24,601 nucleotides of DNA from a virus, in IMG/VR virus record IMGVR_UViG_3300019776_000384, positions 1 through 24,601 of that record; one strand, given 5' to 3'. Below the pieces are notes generated by a model that saw nothing but the letters and a program-made list of their open reading frames with translations, searched no databases and was not told where the DNA came from. Below, in pieces: positions 4,549-24,114 of the stretch. Numbering within the stretch: the first letter of the stretch is position 1; each line of letters begins with the position of its first letter. A program made the translations under genes and the position numbers.

Positions 4549-5064
4549 TTAATTCCAACTTAATGCCCAACGGACAAACATTTTTTGATTTGGTGTTTTG
4601 ACACACTCCGGAAACACTTTTCTAGCCATCATAGTACCATCACTTGAAATCAAGCCAGCTTCATTGTAAACTCTTGCACCTGCACCGTTTCCTTCTGTCT
4701 CATCCAGTACAAACACAAACTCAATCTTTTTATTGATAGTGTCTATGGTGTATGTTCTGCCAGTTTTTCTAAATGTTTCATTTCTCAATGTAACATCACT
4801 CACAACTGGAAAGATGAACTTATTGTCAACGATTCCCTGACTTCCAAGAGCAATAGTGTCTATGATTTTACCAGAATCCGCAGTTGCAACAAGATTTGCC
4901 AAAATCAAAAATCCACTATCTACAATCAGGTTCTTGTCAACATGCGAATGCACTAACTCACCGTTCTCATAAATTTCTAAATTGAAAATACCTTTAGTAG
5001 GTTTGATGATATCAAACATCATACTTCTGAGCTTTTCAATGCTCTTCATAAAATTGTTGAACAT
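4549..5064 (-). CDS. 171-aa virion/baseplate-peripheral protein
   Basis: ATG 5064 follows AAAAAGG with a somewhat long spacing; in-frame ATGs a few codons later lack a site. A short N-terminal helix is followed by a beta-rich domain beginning NLEIYENGELVHSHVDKNLIVDSGFLI, a pattern I have seen in phage tail and baseplate proteins of unknown role, and ending MFVRWALSWN. With the preceding gp7-like gene and the following fibre-like genes, a fibre adaptor or baseplate-peripheral role is likely. Confidence 0.65.
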   Translation of the reverse strand: MFNNFMKSIEKLRSMMFDIIKPTKGIFNLEIYENGELVHSHVDKNLIVDSGFLILANLVATADSGKIIDTIALGSQGIVDNKFIFPVVSDVTLRNETFRKTGRTYTIDTINKKIEFVFVLDETEGNGAGARVYNEAGLISSDGTMMARKVFPECVKTPNQKMFVRWALSWN

Positions 5065-12233: not shown

Positions 12234-12386
12234 TTATAACTGTCGTATTTTGTCTTTCACCCTATTTTGAATATCAATATCTTCGGAGAGCAATGTCACC
12301 AAAACATTAACAACCTGCGCAAAGCTTCCAAATCTTTTTATTGTTTCGATACTCTTTGATGTAAAAAAGATAGATATCTTTTCCAT
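12234..12386 (-). CDS. 50-aa ORF coupled to the homing endonuclease
   Basis: The ATG at 12386 shares a base with the endonuclease TAA (TAATG) and has an excellent GGAGG site 5 nt upstream. It encodes 50 residues, starting MEKISIFFTSKSIETIKRFG and ending KDKIRQL, with a helical middle and no recognised motif. It ends just before the gp24 promoter motif. It occurs only as part of the inserted segment, so it may be an accessory of the endonuclease or a residue of the insertion. The strong ribosome site argues that it is translated. Confidence 0.5.
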   Translation of the reverse strand: MEKISIFFTSKSIETIKRFGSFAQVVNVLVTLLSEDIDIQNRVKDKIRQL

Positions 12387-14377
12387 TATTTCCTCCAAAT
12401 ATAAATTAAATTACCACAGTCATAAATTTTACGATATCCATTATTGAATATATTTTCAGAATCACTTAAAGATGGGTCATATACCTCTAAATTTTCTGAG
12501 ATCCTATGTTTTTGAAACATCAACCTGTTATGCAGTATTCCATCATCTTTGAAAAAGAAATAATTACATTCCGTCTTTCCTACAAATTGGAAATTTAAAT
12601 TTTCATATAACTTTCCTCTGCTCCATCGTCTGTTTGCATACGATATTATAGAATCCGGAGTTGCAGTAGAAATGAAATGTTTGAATAGTTTGGACGCACC
12701 TCCAACCACACTATGACCCAATTTATTACAAAATCTAATCAGCTCATATTGTGTAGATTTGTTAAATCTACTTTTTCCAAAAGTCATTACAGATACCAAC
12801 TCATTATTATAGAATAAACCATATCTATGAGATGCAACTGCGTATCCTTGAATATGATTATCATTTAAAAAATCTTTCATTTCGTTAAAAGTCAGCGTCT
12901 TGACAACACATTTTCGAGCATATATCTTAGTTGATTTTCCAAATGCATTCTGAATCATGCTTTCCCATATCAATTTCTTCCTCCCGACAAATTCAGAATC
13001 AAATATATGATACAGTGATATATCTTGTTCTTCACATGCTTCTGTCTTATGAAGGTGAGAATGTTTTCGAAAACTTTCATCTTCTACGTTATTAAATTGT
13101 GACCATTTTGATTTTCCAAAAGAATGCCACATTAGACCATTGTATTCAATAGCAATTTTATGTTTAGGTGAAAAAATATCTAATTCAATCGCTCTGCCTT
13201 TTTCAGATTTTATAATATCAAATCTACCATATGATAATGTCTCATCGTACGCTTGAAGAGTTCTGTATAACTGTTCTTGTTCCGTATCTTTATTACTATT
13301 GCATATTCTACATCTAGCATAAAATCCATTAGTCTTTATATTTGTTTCAAAAGTATTGCCACACGTGCATTGAAATTTTACAACCCTGGATCTGCTTGTT
13401 AACATTTCAACCTTAGAGGTTAGCACAGTTAAATTTGGATATAAATTTTGGTATTCGGTAATACATCTATCATAATAGTTAGATAACGCAATATCTAATC
13501 TTTTATTCATCGCTTCCTTAGATGCAATTATTACAGAATCGGTTTTAAATGGATTATCAACACCATACTTTTGTATCCATGTTTTCTTGGCTGTATCTAA
13601 ATTATAAAAGGTGTACCCATAAAGATTTGATTTTGTTTCCATAGCTTTTTTAGATGCATATGTTATCATATTATCACCGTTTGGAAGTATTGTCTGCATC
13701 TTTTTAATAAGCCCTTTTTTGGATGCCCGTTGATGTGTATTCAAACCATCTTCACCAATCTCATTCTTTGTCTCAACAATCTTACGATATCTTCTAGAGT
13801 AATTTAGTCTATCTTCTTTTGCTTTTATATGAGCATTTGATAGATTGACTTTAATTCGTTCTCTATCTTCACTCGTCAGTGACTCTTTATATCGAATCAC
13901 ACCGATTCGATGCTTTTCTTTAACTTCAGGATCACAGAACCGAAGTTTGAGTTTTTCAGATACCTTTTTATATACACCATTCTCAGTTTTGATTTTTGCG
14001 TGTTTTCTATTTGCGTTCGAAACATTTTGTTTCTTTTTTGGATCTTCAAAAACCTTTAACATTAATTGACTTCTATATTTGGAATCATTAGAGCATATTG
14101 AAGAGCATGTACTTCTATAACCCTTATGGTAATCGATAAACTTGACATGTTCACCGCACACTGCACATTTAGGAATACTTGATAAATTATTCAAAATAAC
14201 ATATAATCTTTCTTGAAGTTTTGCATATTCTGGCAAAAATGACGTGGCTTGCATAATTGAGTTGTATAACTCTGGATTGTTATTTTTGAAAGTAATCGGA
14301 TGCGAGATTTTAGACATGACTAAAATATCATCTTGAAAAAGTTTATTTTTAATGTCTTGTTGTAGTTTGCTTTTCAT
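12386..14377 (-). CDS. Homing endonuclease, Vsr/EDxHD-like, with two zinc-finger-like motifs
   Basis: A 663-aa protein inserted between gp23 and the gp24 paralogue; ATG 14377 follows AAAGGA. Visible parts: a Cys4 motif (C71, C74, C91, C95); lysine-rich linker repeats at about 110-300 with the TWIQKYGVDNPFKTDS type seen in phage endonucleases; a second Cys4 (C337, C339, C356, C359); and a nuclease core at about 365-465 with AIELDIFSPKHKIAIEYNG-WH (D400, E411, H418) and a later H-x-C-x-LYHIFDSE region, as in the EDxHD/Vsr group (I-Bth0305I type). The C-terminal domain (about 483-663; VASHRYGLFYNNELVSVMTF, VVGGASKLFKHF, SYANRRW) recurs in such phage proteins and I think is GNAT/Mom-like. No late motif precedes it. 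It probably cuts capsid-region DNA of related phages. Confidence 0.85.
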   Translation of the reverse strand: MKSKLQQDIKNKLFQDDILVMSKISHPITFKNNNPELYNSIMQATSFLPEYAKLQERLYVILNNLSSIPKCAVCGEHVKFIDYHKGYRSTCSSICSNDSKYRSQLMLKVFEDPKKKQNVSNANRKHAKIKTENGVYKKVSEKLKLRFCDPEVKEKHRIGVIRYKESLTSEDRERIKVNLSNAHIKAKEDRLNYSRRYRKIVETKNEIGEDGLNTHQRASKKGLIKKMQTILPNGDNMITYASKKAMETKSNLYGYTFYNLDTAKKTWIQKYGVDNPFKTDSVIIASKEAMNKRLDIALSNYYDRCITEYQNLYPNLTVLTSKVEMLTSRSRVVKFQCTCGNTFETNIKTNGFYARCRICNSNKDTEQEQLYRTLQAYDETLSYGRFDIIKSEKGRAIELDIFSPKHKIAIEYNGLMWHSFGKSKWSQFNNVEDESFRKHSHLHKTEACEEQDISLYHIFDSEFVGRKKLIWESMIQNAFGKSTKIYARKCVVKTLTFNEMKDFLNDNHIQGYAVASHRYGLFYNNELVSVMTFGKSRFNKSTQYELIRFCNKLGHSVVGGASKLFKHFISTATPDSIISYANRRWSRGKLYENLNFQFVGKTECNYFFFKDDGILHNRLMFQKHRISENLEVYDPSLSDSENIFNNGYRKIYDCGNLIYIWRK

Positions 14378-14456: not shown

Positions 14457-15878
14457 TTAGAACAATGGAGTGTCTGTGAAGTCCACCGCAAAGATTTCAG
14501 CGTAGTTAGAACCACCGTTATCATCTAAAAGTGTGTTGGTTGTCAAGCCATATCTGGTTTTGATACCCATCACTGGTTGAAGTGTAGTTGCGTTTACAGC
14601 TTCAACAACTTGAAGTGGAGCATATGGGGAGTAGATCACACCCGCATCCATTTCTGTTGCACCTTTGTAGATTACCATACAGTACTCTTCGGTTGAGAAC
14701 CAGTCTTGATAAACTTTCATACCGTTTGAAAGTGTTCCAACATAAGTTGAAGCTTGGTTTTCACCAGTTTTTACACCCTCTTCGTATGCAGTCATTTTGA
14801 ACTTGCCAAGTGACTCAAATGCACTGATAACACCAGCAGTTGCTAAAAGAATGTTACCTTTACCACGTCTGTTCTTAACAGCTAAACCGTTAGATGTTTT
14901 AAGAACTTTTTGGTAAAGTCCAGCATACATCTCCATGTTCCATCTACCTTGGCTAGATGTTGTTGTAGCAACAGCAAAGTCAGGTGATGCAGTAGCAATA
15001 GATTTATATCTTTCGATGATCTCTCTGTCTAAGTCTAAGTTGATCTCAGTCTCTAAGAAGTTCATCAACTCTTCGTCAGCCGCGGCACCGTGCATTGCTT
15101 GGAGGTCTTGCACGAGTTCCATTGTGAACTCAGCTTTAAGAGCACGAGTTTTAACATCAACAGCGAGTTTTTCAACTGTTACTTTCAACTGATTCATATC
15201 ATCGCCAAGAACCTCACCTTGTGCGGTTGTGTATGGACCAGAGTAGTTTTTCAAGATCTGTTTATAACCAGACTCACTTGTGTACACTGCGCTGATTGTG
15301 TTGTCATTTGCGCCAGCTGAATACGTAGCACCAATGTCAAATTTATCACCAGCACTGATAGTACCTGAAGTGATTTCAATGATAGCCTTACCAAGTAAAC
15401 CCGCAACTTCAACATACTTAACAGTCGCAACAGCACCTGTAGAAGTTGTAATTGTGTTACCAACTGTGAGTGGTGTTACATTGTCATGAACAATGATTTT
15501 CGCACCATTTGCAATTGGAGTTGTTTTTGTTCCAGCATATTTGCTTTTGATAGCAAAAACTGAACTTGTTGGGCTGTCAACTGGTTGAACACCTGCGATA
15601 TCAAATGCGATCATATTTGGAATGATACGTCTAAGAAGTGGTTGAAGTTTCTTAGTGAACGGTTCGATGTTCGCTGATACGTTATTCTCTTGAAGTGATT
15701 TCTCTTGAAGTTGAATCATCTTCACAGCCATAGGAATTCTTGCTTCCTGGATTTTATCACCAGCACTTTCAAAAAGCTCAAGAACCTCTTCCGTTGGAAG
15801 AATTCTAGTTTTAAGACTTTCGTTAATAGTGCCAACGGCAACAGTAACTGACTCTGTCAACGCTTGTTTTGTTTTCAT
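14457..15878 (-). CDS. 23: Major capsid protein (gp23-like)
   Basis: A 473-aa HK97-fold capsid protein (T4 gp23 521 aa). The family hallmark LLRRIIPNMIAFDIAGVQPV, followed by DSPTSSVFA, lies near residues 80-110. The delta-domain propeptide upstream contains gp21-type sites at E9, E20, E37 and E45; IQE45 before A46, about 40 residues ahead of the hallmark, best matches the T4 cleavage position (E65). A beta-rich insertion around residues 125-215, also present in the gp24-like protein, precedes YTTAQGEVL. The C-terminus GIKTRYGL..N..L is typical. It forms the hexameric shell capsomers. A stem-loop follows the stop. Confidence 0.95.
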   Translation of the reverse strand: MKTKQALTESVTVAVGTINESLKTRILPTEEVLELFESAGDKIQEARIPMAVKMIQLQEKSLQENNVSANIEPFTKKLQPLLRRIIPNMIAFDIAGVQPVDSPTSSVFAIKSKYAGTKTTPIANGAKIIVHDNVTPLTVGNTITTSTGAVATVKYVEVAGLLGKAIIEITSGTISAGDKFDIGATYSAGANDNTISAVYTSESGYKQILKNYSGPYTTAQGEVLGDDMNQLKVTVEKLAVDVKTRALKAEFTMELVQDLQAMHGAAADEELMNFLETEINLDLDREIIERYKSIATASPDFAVATTTSSQGRWNMEMYAGLYQKVLKTSNGLAVKNRRGKGNILLATAGVISAFESLGKFKMTAYEEGVKTGENQASTYVGTLSNGMKVYQDWFSTEEYCMVIYKGATEMDAGVIYSPYAPLQVVEAVNATTLQPVMGIKTRYGLTTNTLLDDNGGSNYAEIFAVDFTDTPLF

Positions 15879-15920: not shown

Positions 15921-16700
15921 CTATTTCTTCCACGATGCTTTTGAAGCGTCGTTTGGAACAGATTCACGAAGATTTTTCTTATCTTCACCTTTTGTTGACA
16001 CTACGATTGATTTCATCACGTCGACTTTTGTTTTAAATGTGTCAATGTCGCTAAACTCGACAGACTCAATTAAAGTTTTCAACTTCTCAGCTTGAACAGC
16101 AGTTAAGTCTAGAACAGCTTCAGTGACAACTTTGTCTTTTTTCATCGTATTGATTTCATCTTCGAGTTCTTTTGCTTTAGCTTTTTCTTTTTCTAATGCA
16201 TCTTTTTCCTCATCAGATTTTTCTGCTTCGTGAAGTGCAAGACCAAACATTTTGGCAAATTCAACAGCGGACTCTTGAATTTTGCGTGCTTTTGCAACGT
16301 CAACTTCATTTTGTGCATCTGGTTTAATCTCTTCCATTGCTTCGTTTACGGCAACCTGAAGAGCTCTGTTTACAGACTCGATAAGACATTTTGTGTCAAA
16401 ATCAAATTTTGCAGTCAACTCTTTTTTCAAATCATTTGCATATGCTTCAGAAAGTTCTTTAGCCAATGCACTAGATGAACTATTCAAACTTTCGTTTAGA
16501 TCATATACATGTGCCTTGGCAATTGTATCCAAATGACTTTCAACGGCAGAAACAATAGATTCCTGAAGCGATTCAAGTTTCTCGTTAGCTTTGATTTCAA
16601 CTGCGGAATCAAAAGCTTCGACGATCGTCTTTTTAACTTCAGGAGTCATAATGTTGTCATTGATTTTTGACATAGCTTCAAGTAATAGAGCTTTGCTCAT
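15921..16700 (-). CDS. 22: Prohead scaffolding core protein (gp22-like)
   Basis: A 259-aa, almost wholly helical, highly charged protein directly before gp23, as gp22 is in T4 (269 aa). A coiled coil rich in E and K spans about residues 160-190. It should polymerise as the internal core on which the capsid forms and then be digested by the gp21 protease. The sequence supports that: ten [LI]xE sites followed by A or S occur at E8, E28, E47, E70, E85, E108, E143, E158, E212 and E246. The first, LLE before A9, also sits where a capsid-targeting peptide would. Confidence 0.9.
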   Translation of the reverse strand: MSKALLLEAMSKINDNIMTPEVKKTIVEAFDSAVEIKANEKLESLQESIVSAVESHLDTIAKAHVYDLNESLNSSSSALAKELSEAYANDLKKELTAKFDFDTKCLIESVNRALQVAVNEAMEEIKPDAQNEVDVAKARKIQESAVEFAKMFGLALHEAEKSDEEKDALEKEKAKAKELEDEINTMKKDKVVTEAVLDLTAVQAEKLKTLIESVEFSDIDTFKTKVDVMKSIVVSTKGEDKKNLRESVPNDASKASWKK

Positions 16701-16761: not shown

Positions 16762-18432
16762 CTATAATAACTCTAATTGCAACTCATCTTCAGCAATTGT
16801 TAATCTGAATGCAATTTCCTCAATAGATCTGTTTGGTAAAAATGCAACATCAACGATCAAAACATTCTGATTAATGATATCAGATGGGTTATTTTCGCTA
16901 TCACATTTGACTTTAAATCCATCATTGCCTGCGTCGGTTTTTCTGATACCTCTACCATCTTGCACGCTTTTTAAGAAACGTGTCAATTTAGAAGTAATAG
17001 AACCACGTGTAAACTCATCGTTGAAGTTGAATAATTGATATTCAAGATAGCTTTTTCCAGCTCTCCAAATGTAGTTCACTAACTCTCGAACGCCTTCATC
17101 TCTTAGCGCACTCGGTTTAGAAGTGAATGTTCTTTGACCCCACTTCACGTTACCTTTACCAGGCTTAAGAATGATAGGATTCATTCTAGATTCAATAATT
17201 GTTTTTACAGCAGTGACATCCCAATATTGGGCAAATTTTTCAACTTCCACGAATTGACCATAGTTCAGACCAGCATCACTATACCAAGGTTGAGTTGATA
17301 AATTCTGTTTAACACGTAAACCAATTAAATCACCTGCAATTCCAATCCAGCGATATCTATTGTTATAGTTATCAAAGATCAAGAATGCTTGAGCTCCAAA
17401 TGAACCATAATTTGAATTCGTTGGAAGAGTTGTAGTTGAAAATGTCTTAATCGCCGCAACAGCGGTGTCAGCATCTTTGCCTACGATGAGTTCTTTCGGT
17501 ACAGACGCTCTGAATGAACAATCTTGTCTAGTTTCACACAATGTCATCGACTCCGCTAAAGTCTTTGGATGTGAAAGAACATAGTTGATATCTACATAGT
17601 CTGCATTTTCAAACAATTTAAGAGCATTTACATAATCCGCATCTTCTGGAGCAGTGTAAACACCACCGATCAATGCAGTTGCTTCAAATGAAAACGGTGT
17701 TCCAGTTGTTACAGCATTGTTTCTGTATGCGTAGATGTATTTTGAGTTCTGATTGAATACATTCTCGATATAGTTGTCAAAACCATACGTATCTTTCCCG
17801 CCAGGATTGATATCAACTACATGTTTTTCAAGAATGTTGTTTGAAGCATCTAAAACCGCAACAGCGACTTGAGTTCCTTCAGGTGCAACTTCAAAATTAT
17901 CAACAAATGCAACTCCATTGTAAATTTCAGCAGTTGCAAAATCACTCACATTGCACAGTGCCAATTTATATACAACATCTGTCGGATATGCTGTGAAGAA
18001 TTTTAACATTCCAAGAGTTGCGTCCGAACCAGCATCAAATACAACAGTGACAGTATCAACTTTATCACGGTTTTCAATCAACATCGGTGTAGAAGCAACA
18101 ACAGTCTGACTGGTTGTAACTGTCAACGCACCATTTTTAGAAGTTGACCCAATAGGTCTAACAACTTTCATCAATGCGCCAAGAGAACCAACTTTATATT
18201 TCCAGACACGTGAGATGTTGAACCATTCATCAAAGTTTGCGTCAGTTGGTGTACCAAACGTATTCTTCAATGTGGTTTCGTTGCCAATATCAATGACTTT
18301 GTTTGCTTCACCGATTCTACTCGATAGCAATGCAGAACAATTGATACTGACTGTCGCAGTTATAACCAACGATTCATCGAACACTTGCAAATATACGCCA
18401 GGCACGTTTCGTTTTTGATATGCGGTAGCCAT
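16762..18432 (-). CDS. 18: Contractile tail sheath protein (gp18-like)
   Basis: A 556-aa protein, within the range of shorter gp18-family sheaths (T4 659 aa). The N-terminus MATAYQKRNVPGVYLQVFDES has the family pattern of a conserved P-G-V-Y strand. The C-terminal part holds the sheath core: the FVEVEKFAQYWDVTAVKTII region, GQRTFTSKPSALRD and VRELVNYIWRAGKSYLEYQLF, the helices and strands that interlock subunits. It forms the contractile outer tube. No tail tube (gp19) gene follows, unlike T4, where 18, 19 and 20 are adjacent; here the sheath lies between the accessory block and the scaffold gene. Confidence 0.93.
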   Translation of the reverse strand: MATAYQKRNVPGVYLQVFDESLVITATVSINCSALLSSRIGEANKVIDIGNETTLKNTFGTPTDANFDEWFNISRVWKYKVGSLGALMKVVRPIGSTSKNGALTVTTSQTVVASTPMLIENRDKVDTVTVVFDAGSDATLGMLKFFTAYPTDVVYKLALCNVSDFATAEIYNGVAFVDNFEVAPEGTQVAVAVLDASNNILEKHVVDINPGGKDTYGFDNYIENVFNQNSKYIYAYRNNAVTTGTPFSFEATALIGGVYTAPEDADYVNALKLFENADYVDINYVLSHPKTLAESMTLCETRQDCSFRASVPKELIVGKDADTAVAAIKTFSTTTLPTNSNYGSFGAQAFLIFDNYNNRYRWIGIAGDLIGLRVKQNLSTQPWYSDAGLNYGQFVEVEKFAQYWDVTAVKTIIESRMNPIILKPGKGNVKWGQRTFTSKPSALRDEGVRELVNYIWRAGKSYLEYQLFNFNDEFTRGSITSKLTRFLKSVQDGRGIRKTDAGNDGFKVKCDSENNPSDIINQNVLIVDVAFLPNRSIEEIAFRLTIAEDELQLELL

Positions 18433-18443
18433 TTCTTTAATCT

Positions 18444-18468
18444 CCTTTACTTAATTTAAACTATTTAT
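18444..18468 (-). promoter_or_regulatory. Late-promoter-like motif upstream of the tail sheath gene
   Basis: The minus strand carries ATAAATAGTTTAAATTAAG, then AAAGGAG as the ribosome-binding site for ATG 18432. ATAAATA is one of the two copies closest to the T4 late promoter TATAAATA. The motif includes the acb1 TAG stop (18461-18463). Confidence 0.6.
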
Positions 18469-18898
18469 TTTTCAACCAATCCGGGTCTAATTCTTCTACA
18501 TATTCTTGACCCAGACAGATACAAAAATCAGGATTTTTCAAATAAGAAAAATCTACATCTCCACAATCATATTCAATTGTCACATGAGGACGATAAATAT
18601 CATAATCGAATTGAGCACCTGCTTCTCTAGTCCTTACAAATTCACATTGAAGCTCTACGGAGTCAAGCATGATAACCAGACATCCATTCAACATATCAAA
18701 ACGGCTATGACCAGGTTCGACTCTAATTGTCTTGTCAACCATAGCCGGATAGAAATCAAACGCTTTTCGACTGTATGCAATTGTCACATGCATTTCATCT
18801 GGTTTTGTGACAACCAAACCTTGAGATGCGCAAAACTCAATCAATTCTTCGGAATTTAGAACTTTCATTGCAACATATGTTCCGTTGACGTTGTCCAT
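18461..18898 (-). CDS. acb1: Anti-CBASS cyclic-oligonucleotide phosphodiesterase, Acb1 (T4 57B) homologue
   Basis: The start is ATG 18898 (MDNVNGTYVAM), five bases after AAAGGA; the ATG at 18904 overlaps that site. The product is 145 aa (T4 Acb1 152). It is a 2H phosphoesterase with two H-x-T motifs, HVTIAY at H37 and HVTIEY at H105. They are 68 residues apart, against 69 between H44 and H113 in T4 Acb1. The wider context also matches my memory of T4 57B: GTYVA near the start, YDxxxYRPHVT around the second motif, and YVEELDPDW near the end. The known enzyme degrades cyclic di- and trinucleotide messengers of bacterial CBASS immunity. Activity is inferred. The TAG stop lies inside the sheath-gene promoter motif. 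Confidence 0.88.
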   Translation of the reverse strand: MDNVNGTYVAMKVLNSEELIEFCASQGLVVTKPDEMHVTIAYSRKAFDFYPAMVDKTIRVEPGHSRFDMLNGCLVIMLDSVELQCEFVRTREAGAQFDYDIYRPHVTIEYDCGDVDFSYLKNPDFCICLGQEYVEELDPDWLKNK

Positions 18899-18904
18899 AC
18901 ACAT

Positions 18905-18921
18905 CCTTTTAAACTATTTAA
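18905..18921 (-). promoter_or_regulatory. Late-promoter-like motif upstream of the acb1 homologue
   Basis: The minus strand reads TTAAATAGTTTAAAAGG, the G-variant of the recurrent motif. It includes the nrdD TAA stop (18918-18920), and its AAAAGG end forms the ribosome-binding site of ATG 18898. Promoter activity is inferred. Confidence 0.55.
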
Positions 18922-20714
18922 AAATGACGAAGATGATATAATCTTCGTCCCTCTTCTTCTTGTCTTGCATCAGTCCAAGAACTGATTCTTTTTAAATAAC
19001 CGATGATCCTTGTTGCATAGTCGACATCTTCAGATCCACAACTAGGGCAAACTTTTAATGTTCTTTTGTCTATGTTATTGCACACATTACAAATCGTCAC
19101 CTTAACGTTGGTGCAGAAATAATTACAGCCAGTTTTTGCTGAAATGCACATCAACTGGTAAAACTGTTCTGCGTCCAAATATTGTTCCAAGTTTAAATGC
19201 AGTGCAGAACCACCATCTAAAAATTTATTGATTTCTCTGCCATGCAAAATGAATTTGTCAATCACCGAAATATTTTCATCTTCAACTGGATAAAAATATG
19301 AATTGTATATCGGTCTAGGAACTTCTAATCCATCTTCATAATCCCATTTGGCATGTTTCTTTCCTAAGTTTTCACCTGGGACAAATTCAGTGTTGAACAT
19401 GTATCCATATTTTTCTTTGGCTTCTTTATTTTTATCAAAAATTACTTTCAATACACCTGACACAAATTCTTTATATTCTGCGTTATTGCCCGCAGTGTAA
19501 CCAAGATATTCGGCACCTTCTAAAAGTCCATTAATGCCGATGGTTAGAAACTGTTTCTCTAAAGAAATGAAACCCGCATCATATACAGTTAGCAAGCCAT
19601 TATCTTTGAATTGTTGAATGATATGTCTAAACGCCACCTGAAACTTATGCATGTCGTCAATCTGTTTTGCAAGAGCTTCATGTAAGTTGTCTTTGTTTTG
19701 TTGGATGAATCTATTCATGTTCAGCGTCATAACTGAAATAGATCCAGTTGAAACACCGCCAGCCCCCAGTGAATAAGAAAACGTGTTGTCAACAATCTCA
19801 TTTCTCAATCTACAACAACTAGCAAGCGAATCCGGACTGTCTGACTGATAAATGAAAAATGAGTTTCCTTCTGATAGTTGTTTAGCGCACATTCTAGCAA
19901 ACTCTTCATCTTTAGGTTTTTCATTGTCTACAAGCATCGCCGCGGTAACAACTGGAAACGTCAATACTTTTCTAGTTCTCTCTTCATTGAACCATGTCAT
20001 AAAGAATTCTTGAAACTTCTTCAATGATTCCCAAGATGGAGCAGTGAAGTCTGGATATCTAAAATCACCGAACATAGATTGAAAATATTCTTTATCATAT
20101 AAGCTGATATTCCAAAATACGCTTTGATAACCTCTTGCCGCGGCAGGCTGATTTAACGCATACACCACGTGTTGAAGATGATTTTCAACTTCTTTTTTAT
20201 GCGTGTTCATATAGTCATCGCCATAATCTTTTCGAGCAAAATAATCAAAATACATCAAAAATTCTACAGTTGCAACAGCACCCGCAAATTGACTTGAAAT
20301 TGCAAACACTAGATTAACAAACGACCCACAGAACGATGAAATATGTTTTGGTGCTTCACTATCACCGCCCATTTTAACAAGCCCATCAAGCAAAAATGGA
20401 TACATTGAAATGCTGGTGCAATATGGAATTCCTGGACTTGCAGTTTCATCATGTTTGTATATGATATGATTTTTCAATTGTCTAGCATATTCATCAGCTG
20501 TATCTTTTCCAAACAAGGACGTTAATGTCCTTTTCATCAACTCTCTATTTACTGCAATATTAACATCTTTATTCATCTCGGATGCCAATGTTGCAACATT
20601 CTTTTGGCTTACGTTAGCATTTGCGTCAAACTTAGAACCATTAGAAGCATTTGTGGCGGTTAGATAATGATCTAAAAACTGAATTTTTGAGTCTAGAAAT
20701 TTTTGTGTTATCAT
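18918..20714 (-). CDS. nrdD: Anaerobic (class III) ribonucleoside-triphosphate reductase NrdD
   Basis: I start at ATG 20714 (MITQKFLDSK), which overlaps the nrdG stop as ATGA and has AAAGGA upstream; an in-frame extension to 20747 lacks such a site. The product is 598 aa. It has the class III signature set: a cysteine-containing active-site region including SLASCCRLRNEI, a C-terminal zinc site CNVC-x10-CPSC, and the glycyl-radical segment RIIGYL with the radical glycine near residue 572. It reduces ribonucleoside triphosphates to dNTPs for phage DNA synthesis under anaerobiosis. No ATP-cone regulatory domain is evident at the N-terminus, so allosteric control may be simplified. Its TAA stop lies inside the next late-promoter-like motif. 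Confidence 0.93.
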   Translation of the reverse strand: MITQKFLDSKIQFLDHYLTATNASNGSKFDANANVSQKNVATLASEMNKDVNIAVNRELMKRTLTSLFGKDTADEYARQLKNHIIYKHDETASPGIPYCTSISMYPFLLDGLVKMGGDSEAPKHISSFCGSFVNLVFAISSQFAGAVATVEFLMYFDYFARKDYGDDYMNTHKKEVENHLQHVVYALNQPAAARGYQSVFWNISLYDKEYFQSMFGDFRYPDFTAPSWESLKKFQEFFMTWFNEERTRKVLTFPVVTAAMLVDNEKPKDEEFARMCAKQLSEGNSFFIYQSDSPDSLASCCRLRNEIVDNTFSYSLGAGGVSTGSISVMTLNMNRFIQQNKDNLHEALAKQIDDMHKFQVAFRHIIQQFKDNGLLTVYDAGFISLEKQFLTIGINGLLEGAEYLGYTAGNNAEYKEFVSGVLKVIFDKNKEAKEKYGYMFNTEFVPGENLGKKHAKWDYEDGLEVPRPIYNSYFYPVEDENISVIDKFILHGREINKFLDGGSALHLNLEQYLDAEQFYQLMCISAKTGCNYFCTNVKVTICNVCNNIDKRTLKVCPSCGSEDVDYATRIIGYLKRISSWTDARQEEEGRRLYHLRHF

Positions 20715-21175
20715 TTGAGTCCTTTTTGAAATTTGTAGTTTAAACACTCTCCAGAAGAATTAAAAAATCTTTGGTTTGTATGTATATTATTTAAACCACC
20801 AAATTCCTCTATAAAAGGACCAACCTTATAGTAATCTAATAATGGAAGAATACTTTCTGGAATTGAATCTTTGTTGCTATATAGACATGTTTTCAATTTG
20901 AATCCACCAACAGCAATGTGCAAAAGATTTGATAGTTCTGTTTCATCCCATTCTCCACCTAAAAACAACACGCATGTAATATAAGGTCTAACTTTCAATA
21001 CTTCCGAAATAAAAGCGTCGGCATCTAAACGTTTTGATGTTCCATCTACATGATGTAGATGTGGAGAATGACATCCTTTGCATTTACCACCACACCCAAT
21101 CATGCTAAAACATAAAGACACCTCTTCAGGTACTTCTTGGAAAACTATATTGGTAGAATAATAATGCAAAGACAT
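20711..21175 (-). CDS. nrdG: Anaerobic ribonucleotide reductase activating protein NrdG
   Basis: A 154-aa radical-SAM activase, the usual NrdG length. The iron-sulphur motif C28-x3-C32-x2-C35 lies in GCGGKCKGCHSPHL, and FLGGEWDE gives the GGE SAM-binding motif. NrdG reductively cleaves S-adenosylmethionine to place the glycyl radical on NrdD, enabling oxygen-free dNTP synthesis. The ATG at 21175 follows AAAAGG. Its TGA stop overlaps the nrdD start by four bases (ATGA), so the two should be coupled. The order nrdG then nrdD is reversed relative to T4, suggesting separate acquisition of the pair. Confidence 0.93.
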   Translation of the reverse strand: MSLHYYSTNIVFQEVPEEVSLCFSMIGCGGKCKGCHSPHLHHVDGTSKRLDADAFISEVLKVRPYITCVLFLGGEWDETELSNLLHIAVGGFKLKTCLYSNKDSIPESILPLLDYYKVGPFIEEFGGLNNIHTNQRFFNSSGECLNYKFQKGLK

Positions 21176-21256: not shown

Positions 21257-21267
21257 ATGTATTTAAT
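21257..21267 (-). promoter_or_regulatory. Late-promoter-like motif (variant) upstream of nrdG
   Basis: The minus strand reads TTAAATACATT, matching the first eight bases of the recurrent motif but lacking the fused AAAAGG. It includes the TAA stop of the 347-aa gene (21263-21265). Unlike the other copies it is about 80 nt from the next ATG (nrdG, 21175), leaving a leader that contains a hairpin. Confidence 0.4.
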
Positions 21268-22306
21268 AGCTTTCTATGAAAGTATCGCTGATAACCCAAC
21301 CAGCCATACCTGAGATTTTGAAGTAATCACTTGAATCGTATGCGTACCCAACTTTGGCAATCTTATCTTCCGCAATCTGAAACACCATCTGTTGACCTGC
21401 GTTAAAAATGAATGATAACACAGTGTGATCTTTTAAAGAAGATGGCATTTTGGAATATATCAATCCACACATAGTGTATAGATCGCTTTTGATTCTAAAA
21501 TCTTTGGTTTCAATTGCATGATAACAAATCACATTGAATTTGTAACTTCCTAAGATTGTATGTATCAAGGCATCTAATTGTTGATTGCCTTTAGAATTTG
21601 AATGAATACTCAACGAACCTTTACTAAAATCTACGATATATGCAACTTTGCTGTCTATCTTGATATTGATTCTAGACATCACTGTCATTGGATGGATCAA
21701 CGTAATGTTCATTCCATTCTTTGCAACATTAATGTCCTTTGGAATATCAAATTCAATTTTTTGCACGCCCAGTTCTACCAAGTCTTCTTCAAATGGAATA
21801 AACACCTCAGAATTCAATTCACCACTTGAAGTTTGAATTCTTTTGATTTCCGCAGTGTTAATATCCTTCTCAAGATCCGGAGCAACATATGGATCAAACT
21901 GTGAAGCTAACACTTTGGCGTCTTTAGCGATACCTTTTAAGTTCTGAAGTATGCGCATATTCATCTTTAGGTCAGAAAACTTTTTAACTGTTAATGGTAA
22001 TTGATGATAATCAGGTAACAACTCTTTTGATTCAGATCCGGATAACATGTACCCAATAGCATACGCAACAGAAACCTTAGACCCGGACTCTTTGTTTTTC
22101 ATAAGAATATACAAATTGCCTTCAATGTTTCTAGGATGTATAAATCCAACGTGCCACATGCCGTTTTTAACGTCTGATAAAATAAAAGTCTTCGCTCCTA
22201 TTTCTCTCTGAATAAGTTTGAAGTATTTCATAATATTGCTGGACGTTATTGTTATCGCTTCTCTGACGGTGGCATTTTTTGCCACCAGATCATGAAATCT
22301 ACTCAT
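21263..22306 (-). CDS. 347-aa phage protein of unknown function
   Basis: The ATG at 22306 follows a GGAG site. The 347-aa product is not recognised. It is mixed alpha/beta, has no signal peptide or membrane span, and contains strand-rich segments (KTFILSDVKNGMWHVGFIHP; VAKNGMNITLIHPMTVMSR). It reads like two similar beta-rich halves joined by a helical linker around residues 100-150. The start ATVREAITI includes VRE before A, a near but imperfect protease site. It sits between the Dps-like head gene and nrdG, and its TAA stop lies within a late-promoter-like motif. It could be another internal head protein or an accessory protein; the sequence does not decide. Confidence 0.6.
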   Translation of the reverse strand: MSRFHDLVAKNATVREAITITSSNIMKYFKLIQREIGAKTFILSDVKNGMWHVGFIHPRNIEGNLYILMKNKESGSKVSVAYAIGYMLSGSESKELLPDYHQLPLTVKKFSDLKMNMRILQNLKGIAKDAKVLASQFDPYVAPDLEKDINTAEIKRIQTSSGELNSEVFIPFEEDLVELGVQKIEFDIPKDINVAKNGMNITLIHPMTVMSRINIKIDSKVAYIVDFSKGSLSIHSNSKGNQQLDALIHTILGSYKFNVICYHAIETKDFRIKSDLYTMCGLIYSKMPSSLKDHTVLSFIFNAGQQMVFQIAEDKIAKVGYAYDSSDYFKISGMAGWVISDTFIESY

Positions 22307-23947: not shown

Positions 23948-24114
23948 CAGTCTTCCTTCTTTTTCTCTTTATACTGTTCAAGCTTTTGCGCGAATGCTTG
24001 AAAATCTGGGTTCTCGCCAACCTTTTCATAAAAAGCAGTTTTCAATGATTGTGTTAAAGCAACATTGTCACCAGATTTGATATACTCTTTAACAGCTTTA
24101 CCAATTCCACTCAT
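23947..24114 (-). CDS. 55-aa prohead core protein candidate (gp67-like position)
   Basis: A short frame starting at ATG 24114 behind an AAAGGA site and ending in TGA, sharing one base with the protease ATG (TGATG junction), so the two are likely translationally coupled. The product is 55 aa, starts MSGIGKAVKEYIKSGDNVAL, is predicted helical, and ends in a highly charged KEKKKED tail. Small charged proteins between portal and protease in T4-like phages are prohead core components (gp67, gp68). The function is inferred from location and composition; no specific motif was recognised. Confidence 0.7.
   Translation of the reverse strand: MSGIGKAVKEYIKSGDNVALTQSLKTAFYEKVGENPDFQAFAQKLEQYKEKKKED

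Follow-up and report, generated by a model that had tools for sequence, protein, structure and literature searches.

The acb1 locus

The window analysed here was a virus record of 24601 bases, representing the entire contig available. The acb1 gene (18461–18898, minus strand) encoded a 145-residue 2H phosphoesterase, assigned by Pfam PF23474, PDB entry 7t26, Foldseek and a residue table. It was flanked on one side by nrdD, the large subunit of anaerobic ribonucleotide reductase (18918–20747, minus strand; PF13597, 2.8e-111; PHROG 25611, 1.5e-146), and on the other by the tail sheath gene (16762–18432, minus strand; PHROG 23, 6.9e-57), and this placement, proposed in the first-pass annotation, was borne out by gene calls and profile matches. 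An nrdG-like activase gene (20711–21175, minus strand) was recognized by the motif CGGKCKGC and its position before nrdD, together with a marginal match to PHROG 626 (0.0093). The start codon of acb1 was placed at 18898, with an AAAGG ribosome site 6 nt upstream. An in-frame ATG at 18904 was less favoured, and the 145-residue reading was preferred because of the AAAGG 6 nt before 18898.

The block beyond the sheath gene contained the head scaffolding protein (15921–16700, minus strand; PHROG 237, 2.3e-12) and the major capsid protein gp23 (14457–15878, minus strand; PF07068, 1.1e-88). The prohead protease, a gp24-like paralogue, gp25, gp6 and a gp5-like spike were also found among the T4-type genes of the window. 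A 663-residue ORF resembling an HNH homing endonuclease (12386–14377, minus strand; PHROG 3339, 8.7e-111) occupied the gap between gp23 and the gp24-like paralogue. When the major capsid and sheath proteins were compared with those of the nearest named phages, the identity was only about 30–35%, and the window was therefore assigned to a deep T4-like lineage. A megablast search of the whole window against phages gave no match. The known range of Acb1 now includes a deep, uncultured T4-like lineage.

Profile, fold and functional residues of the encoded protein

The 145-residue protein matched the Pfam Acb1 profile PF23474 with an E value of 5e-32 (111 bits against a cut-off of 27) over its full length, residues 7–145 being aligned with positions 1–143 of the 144 in the profile. 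The best sequence match in the PDB was the Acb1 of Erwinia phage FBB1 (7t26, 2.8e-12), followed by the Pam3 portal protein. An AlphaFold model built from an 18-sequence alignment (pLDDT 86.7, pTM 0.81) was searched with Foldseek, and the FBB1 Acb1 structures 7t26 and 7t27 ranked first (7t26: 1.7e-09, TM 0.76/0.80). A phosphodiesterase of Burkholderia phage BCSR5 and then LigT (3.8e-04) were found at lower ranks.

In T4 Acb1, the functional residues are Tyr12, Trp74, Phe107, Trp147 and Glu141, with a tetrad of His44, Thr46, His113 and Thr115 (Hobbs 2022, PMC9117128). The tetrad residues of T4 and FBB1 corresponded here to His37, Thr39, His105 and Thr107, and the two H-x-T motifs (H37-V-T39 and H105-V-T107) lay 68 residues apart, as the first-pass annotation had noted. 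The ligand-contact residues corresponded to Tyr8 (Tyr12 in T4/FBB1), Phe67 (Trp/Phe74), Tyr99 (Phe/Tyr107), Trp141 (Trp147) and Glu135 (Glu141). All nine catalytic and ligand-contact positions were thus kept, with the same letter as FBB1 at every one. The FBB1 protein and T4 gp57B shared the fold, the HxT/HxT tetrad, the four aromatic stacking positions and the adenine-contacting glutamate with the window protein, and all three were free-standing and about 145–152 residues long, although the identity of the window protein to these biochemically tested Acb1 proteins was 31–34%. The motifs given for T4 57B in the first-pass annotation (GTYVA, YRPHVT and YxEELDxxW) were correct only approximately, the sequences being GLYVA, YRPHIT and YSEELDLEW in FBB1, and GLYVA, YTPHIT and YKEPLKLDW in T4.

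A different 2H enzyme, of the LigT, 2'-5' RNA ligase or RNA cyclic phosphodiesterase type and acting in RNA end repair, was considered, since the protein also matched PHROG 755, labelled 'RNA ligase', and LigT structures were present among the fold matches. However, the LigT Pfam profile remained below threshold (E 0.2; 12.3 bits against a cut-off of 23.3), the TM scores of LigT were only about 0.6/0.5, and the ligand-contact residues of Acb1 were retained. Many T4 57B/Acb1 genes carry the 'RNA ligase' annotation, and the label is therefore an old name and not evidence. An RNA-end enzyme is thus extremely unlikely. Profile, nearest solved sequence, predicted fold and functional residues all upheld the first-pass identification, including the preference for Acb1 over other 2H families; on sequence and modelled structure, the protein is a genuine, apparently intact Acb1 and an ordinary member of the known family.

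Relatives and lineage

The same acb1 lineage was found on two further IMG/VR contigs, L090 and L091, in which acb1 was 63–67% identical to that of the window and lay upstream of the sheath gene. A single-protein scan of viral contigs gave no confirmed relative, and none was detected when a two-sequence alignment was run against prokaryote genomes, so the lineage is known here only from the window and these two contigs. The Acb1 of L091 (IMG/VR contig 3300031521_000303), 63% identical to that of the window, kept nine of nine functional residues. When the two acb1 genes were compared, dN was 0.29 and dS was 1.74, the latter near saturation, which gave a dN/dS of about 0.17. These values were similar to those of the protease gene, and acb1 is under purifying selection.

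The gene order in L091 was gp20 portal, protease, DUF5856, orf347, phoH, clpP-like, acb1, a small ORF, sheath, scaffold and gp23. Thus, phoH and the clpP-like gene preceded acb1 in L091, whereas nrdG and nrdD preceded it in the window, and a small ORF separated acb1 from the sheath gene in L091; the position upstream of the sheath was common to both. The acb1 gene stays near the sheath while the preceding gene pair changes. In most Straboviridae records examined, acb1 followed gene 3, the dNMP kinase gene and 57A, unlike its position between nrdD and the sheath in the window, where it had its own late-type motif. The position beside the sheath, retained in a relative, is new, although the novelty is mild; the gene has come to occupy a second site of the T4-type genome. 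The interval between orf347 and acb1 (4729–6713 in L091; 18918–21175 in the window) was a variable auxiliary-gene slot. The 347-residue protein of the window (21263–22306, minus strand) had a counterpart in L091, conserved at 60% and likewise positioned within the block of head genes, and PHROG and Pfam searches with it gave no matches.

Acb1 domains of another type were fused to portal proteins. Among the best 80 IMG/VR relatives (L010–L089), the Acb1 domain was C-terminal in a larger protein in all 80, mostly of about 600–690 residues, and the phiPSA1 protein had Pfam matches to both Phage_portal_3 and Acb1. The identity of these domains (phiPSA1, Pam3 and L010–L089) to the window protein had a median of 35% and reached 39%, slightly above that of FBB1 and T4. 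However, they formed the C-terminal domain of a Phage_portal_3 portal of about 620 residues, whereas the window Acb1 was free-standing with a shorter middle loop. The HxT/S tetrad was present in 79 of the 80 portal-fused relatives and Trp147 in 53, whereas the aromatic residue at position 74, kept in the window protein as Phe67, was found in none.

In a tree calculated without the two very long rows JA13 and Slicko01, the window lineage fell on the branch that joins two clades, that of Straboviridae 57B (support 100/99) and that of the portal-fused domains (99/96), the latter of which included two free-standing proteins from Rhodobacter and Phaeobacter phages. When the very long branch of JA13 was included, the placement was not settled (AU p values of 0.21 and 0.097). 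Since long branches meet in the tree, direct descent from either clade is not claimed, and the window protein and its relatives are best described, from their sequences, as a third Acb1 lineage. Their separateness (31–39% identity to the other lineages) and the short middle loop relative to the portal-fused domains would be compatible with an Acb1 fold that has shifted its target, for example to a different cyclic dinucleotide or to a signal that acts as a decoy. Against this, the substrate-contact and catalytic positions were identical to those of FBB1 throughout, and the homologues tested previously share activity on 3'3'-cGAMP and cAAA (Hobbs 2022, PMC9117128), which makes a shifted target very unlikely.

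Late-type motif and proposed function

A late-promoter-like motif, TTAAATAGTTTAA, was located at 18909–18921 (minus strand), where it overlapped the end of nrdD and stopped 10 nt upstream of the start codon of acb1; this copy read TTTAAATAGTTTAA. The same motif preceded the tail sheath gene at 18456–18468 (minus strand), overlapping the end of acb1. There were 10 copies of the pattern TAAATASTTWAA in the window, each of them on the minus, coding strand (start sites 24128, 18909, 18456, 16712, 15905, 12199, 8100, 5080, 3994 and 1613), against 0.01 expected from dinucleotide shuffles, which confirmed the late-type motif that had been reported ahead of acb1. The genes behind it were a small gene at 24114, acb1, sheath, scaffold, gp23, the gp24 paralogue, gp6 and, in the downstream block, three genes that start at 5064, 3979 and 1601. 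Nine copies thus preceded virion-type or late-block genes and one preceded acb1, and the motif scan of the window found none upstream of nrdG or nrdD.

The shared motif WTAAATASTTWAA was strongly enriched upstream of acb1 and the late-type genes, often with AAAGG directly after it. When compared with the T4 late element, the AAATA core was alike, but the canonical element TATAAATA itself was absent from the window. Variants of the late consensus are documented in T4 relatives (PMC2988020), and we infer from its sequence that WTAAATASTTWAA is such a variant and a putative late promoter. Its reading as a mere extended ribosome site was disfavoured, because the sheath and major capsid copies were 23–26 nt away from the start codon, and a ribosome site distinct from the motif was present there; the spacing elsewhere was 8–15 nt. 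In L091, no motif was found immediately upstream of acb1, while the preceding clpP-like gene had one, which acb1 probably shares. A private acb1 motif is therefore not conserved.

In T4, Acb1 activity begins about 15 min into infection, in step with CBASS, whose onset is late (Hobbs 2022, PMC9117128, the only literature found on the timing of T4 57B transcription), and 57B itself lies beside virion genes, its neighbours being 57A, 1, 3, 2, 4 and ipI. Late expression of acb1 is therefore to be expected. The first-pass annotation had seen a tension with early immune evasion, pointing to delayed protection or a different target, and this argument did not hold. By analogy, the late-gene setting agrees with what is known of T4 and is unsurprising, and the putative late-type control of the window gene would be consistent with the timing of T4 activity.

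The gene product is very probably an active Acb1 that would cut CBASS messengers, and the gene would be transcribed late from its own putative late-type promoter. The two HxT motifs would form a metal-independent acid–base tetrad, residues Tyr8, Phe67, Tyr99 and Trp141 would stack on the bases, and Glu135 would contact an adenine. Cleavage of CBASS cyclic di- and trinucleotides is predicted to occur 3' of adenosine, as T4 Acb1 and nine further homologues cleave 3'3'-cGAMP and cAAA (Hobbs 2022, PMC9117128), and it would prevent effector-driven cell death. Transcribed together with the virion genes from its putative promoter, acb1 may yield a protein that accumulates as CBASS signalling peaks, as in T4.

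The location of acb1 inside the virion block, behind a late-type motif, could alternatively mean that the protein is incorporated in the virion and injected with the DNA, so that the following infection would be protected from its outset. A parallel is offered by other, temperate phages, whose portals carry a fused Acb1 domain, and the Pam3 portal sequence matches the window protein; none of the papers found describes a virion-borne Acb1. However, the gene is free-standing in the window lineage, the gp20 portal of L091 had no Acb1 match, and T4 Acb1 activity in infected cells is seen only late (Hobbs 2022, PMC9117128). Packaging in the virion is accordingly highly improbable for this lineage. 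The large set of portal-fused Acb1 domains nevertheless makes virion-borne CBASS evasion a testable question, and L004 (1624–3426), L099 (1612–3459) and PDB entry 8hds were noted together with this set.
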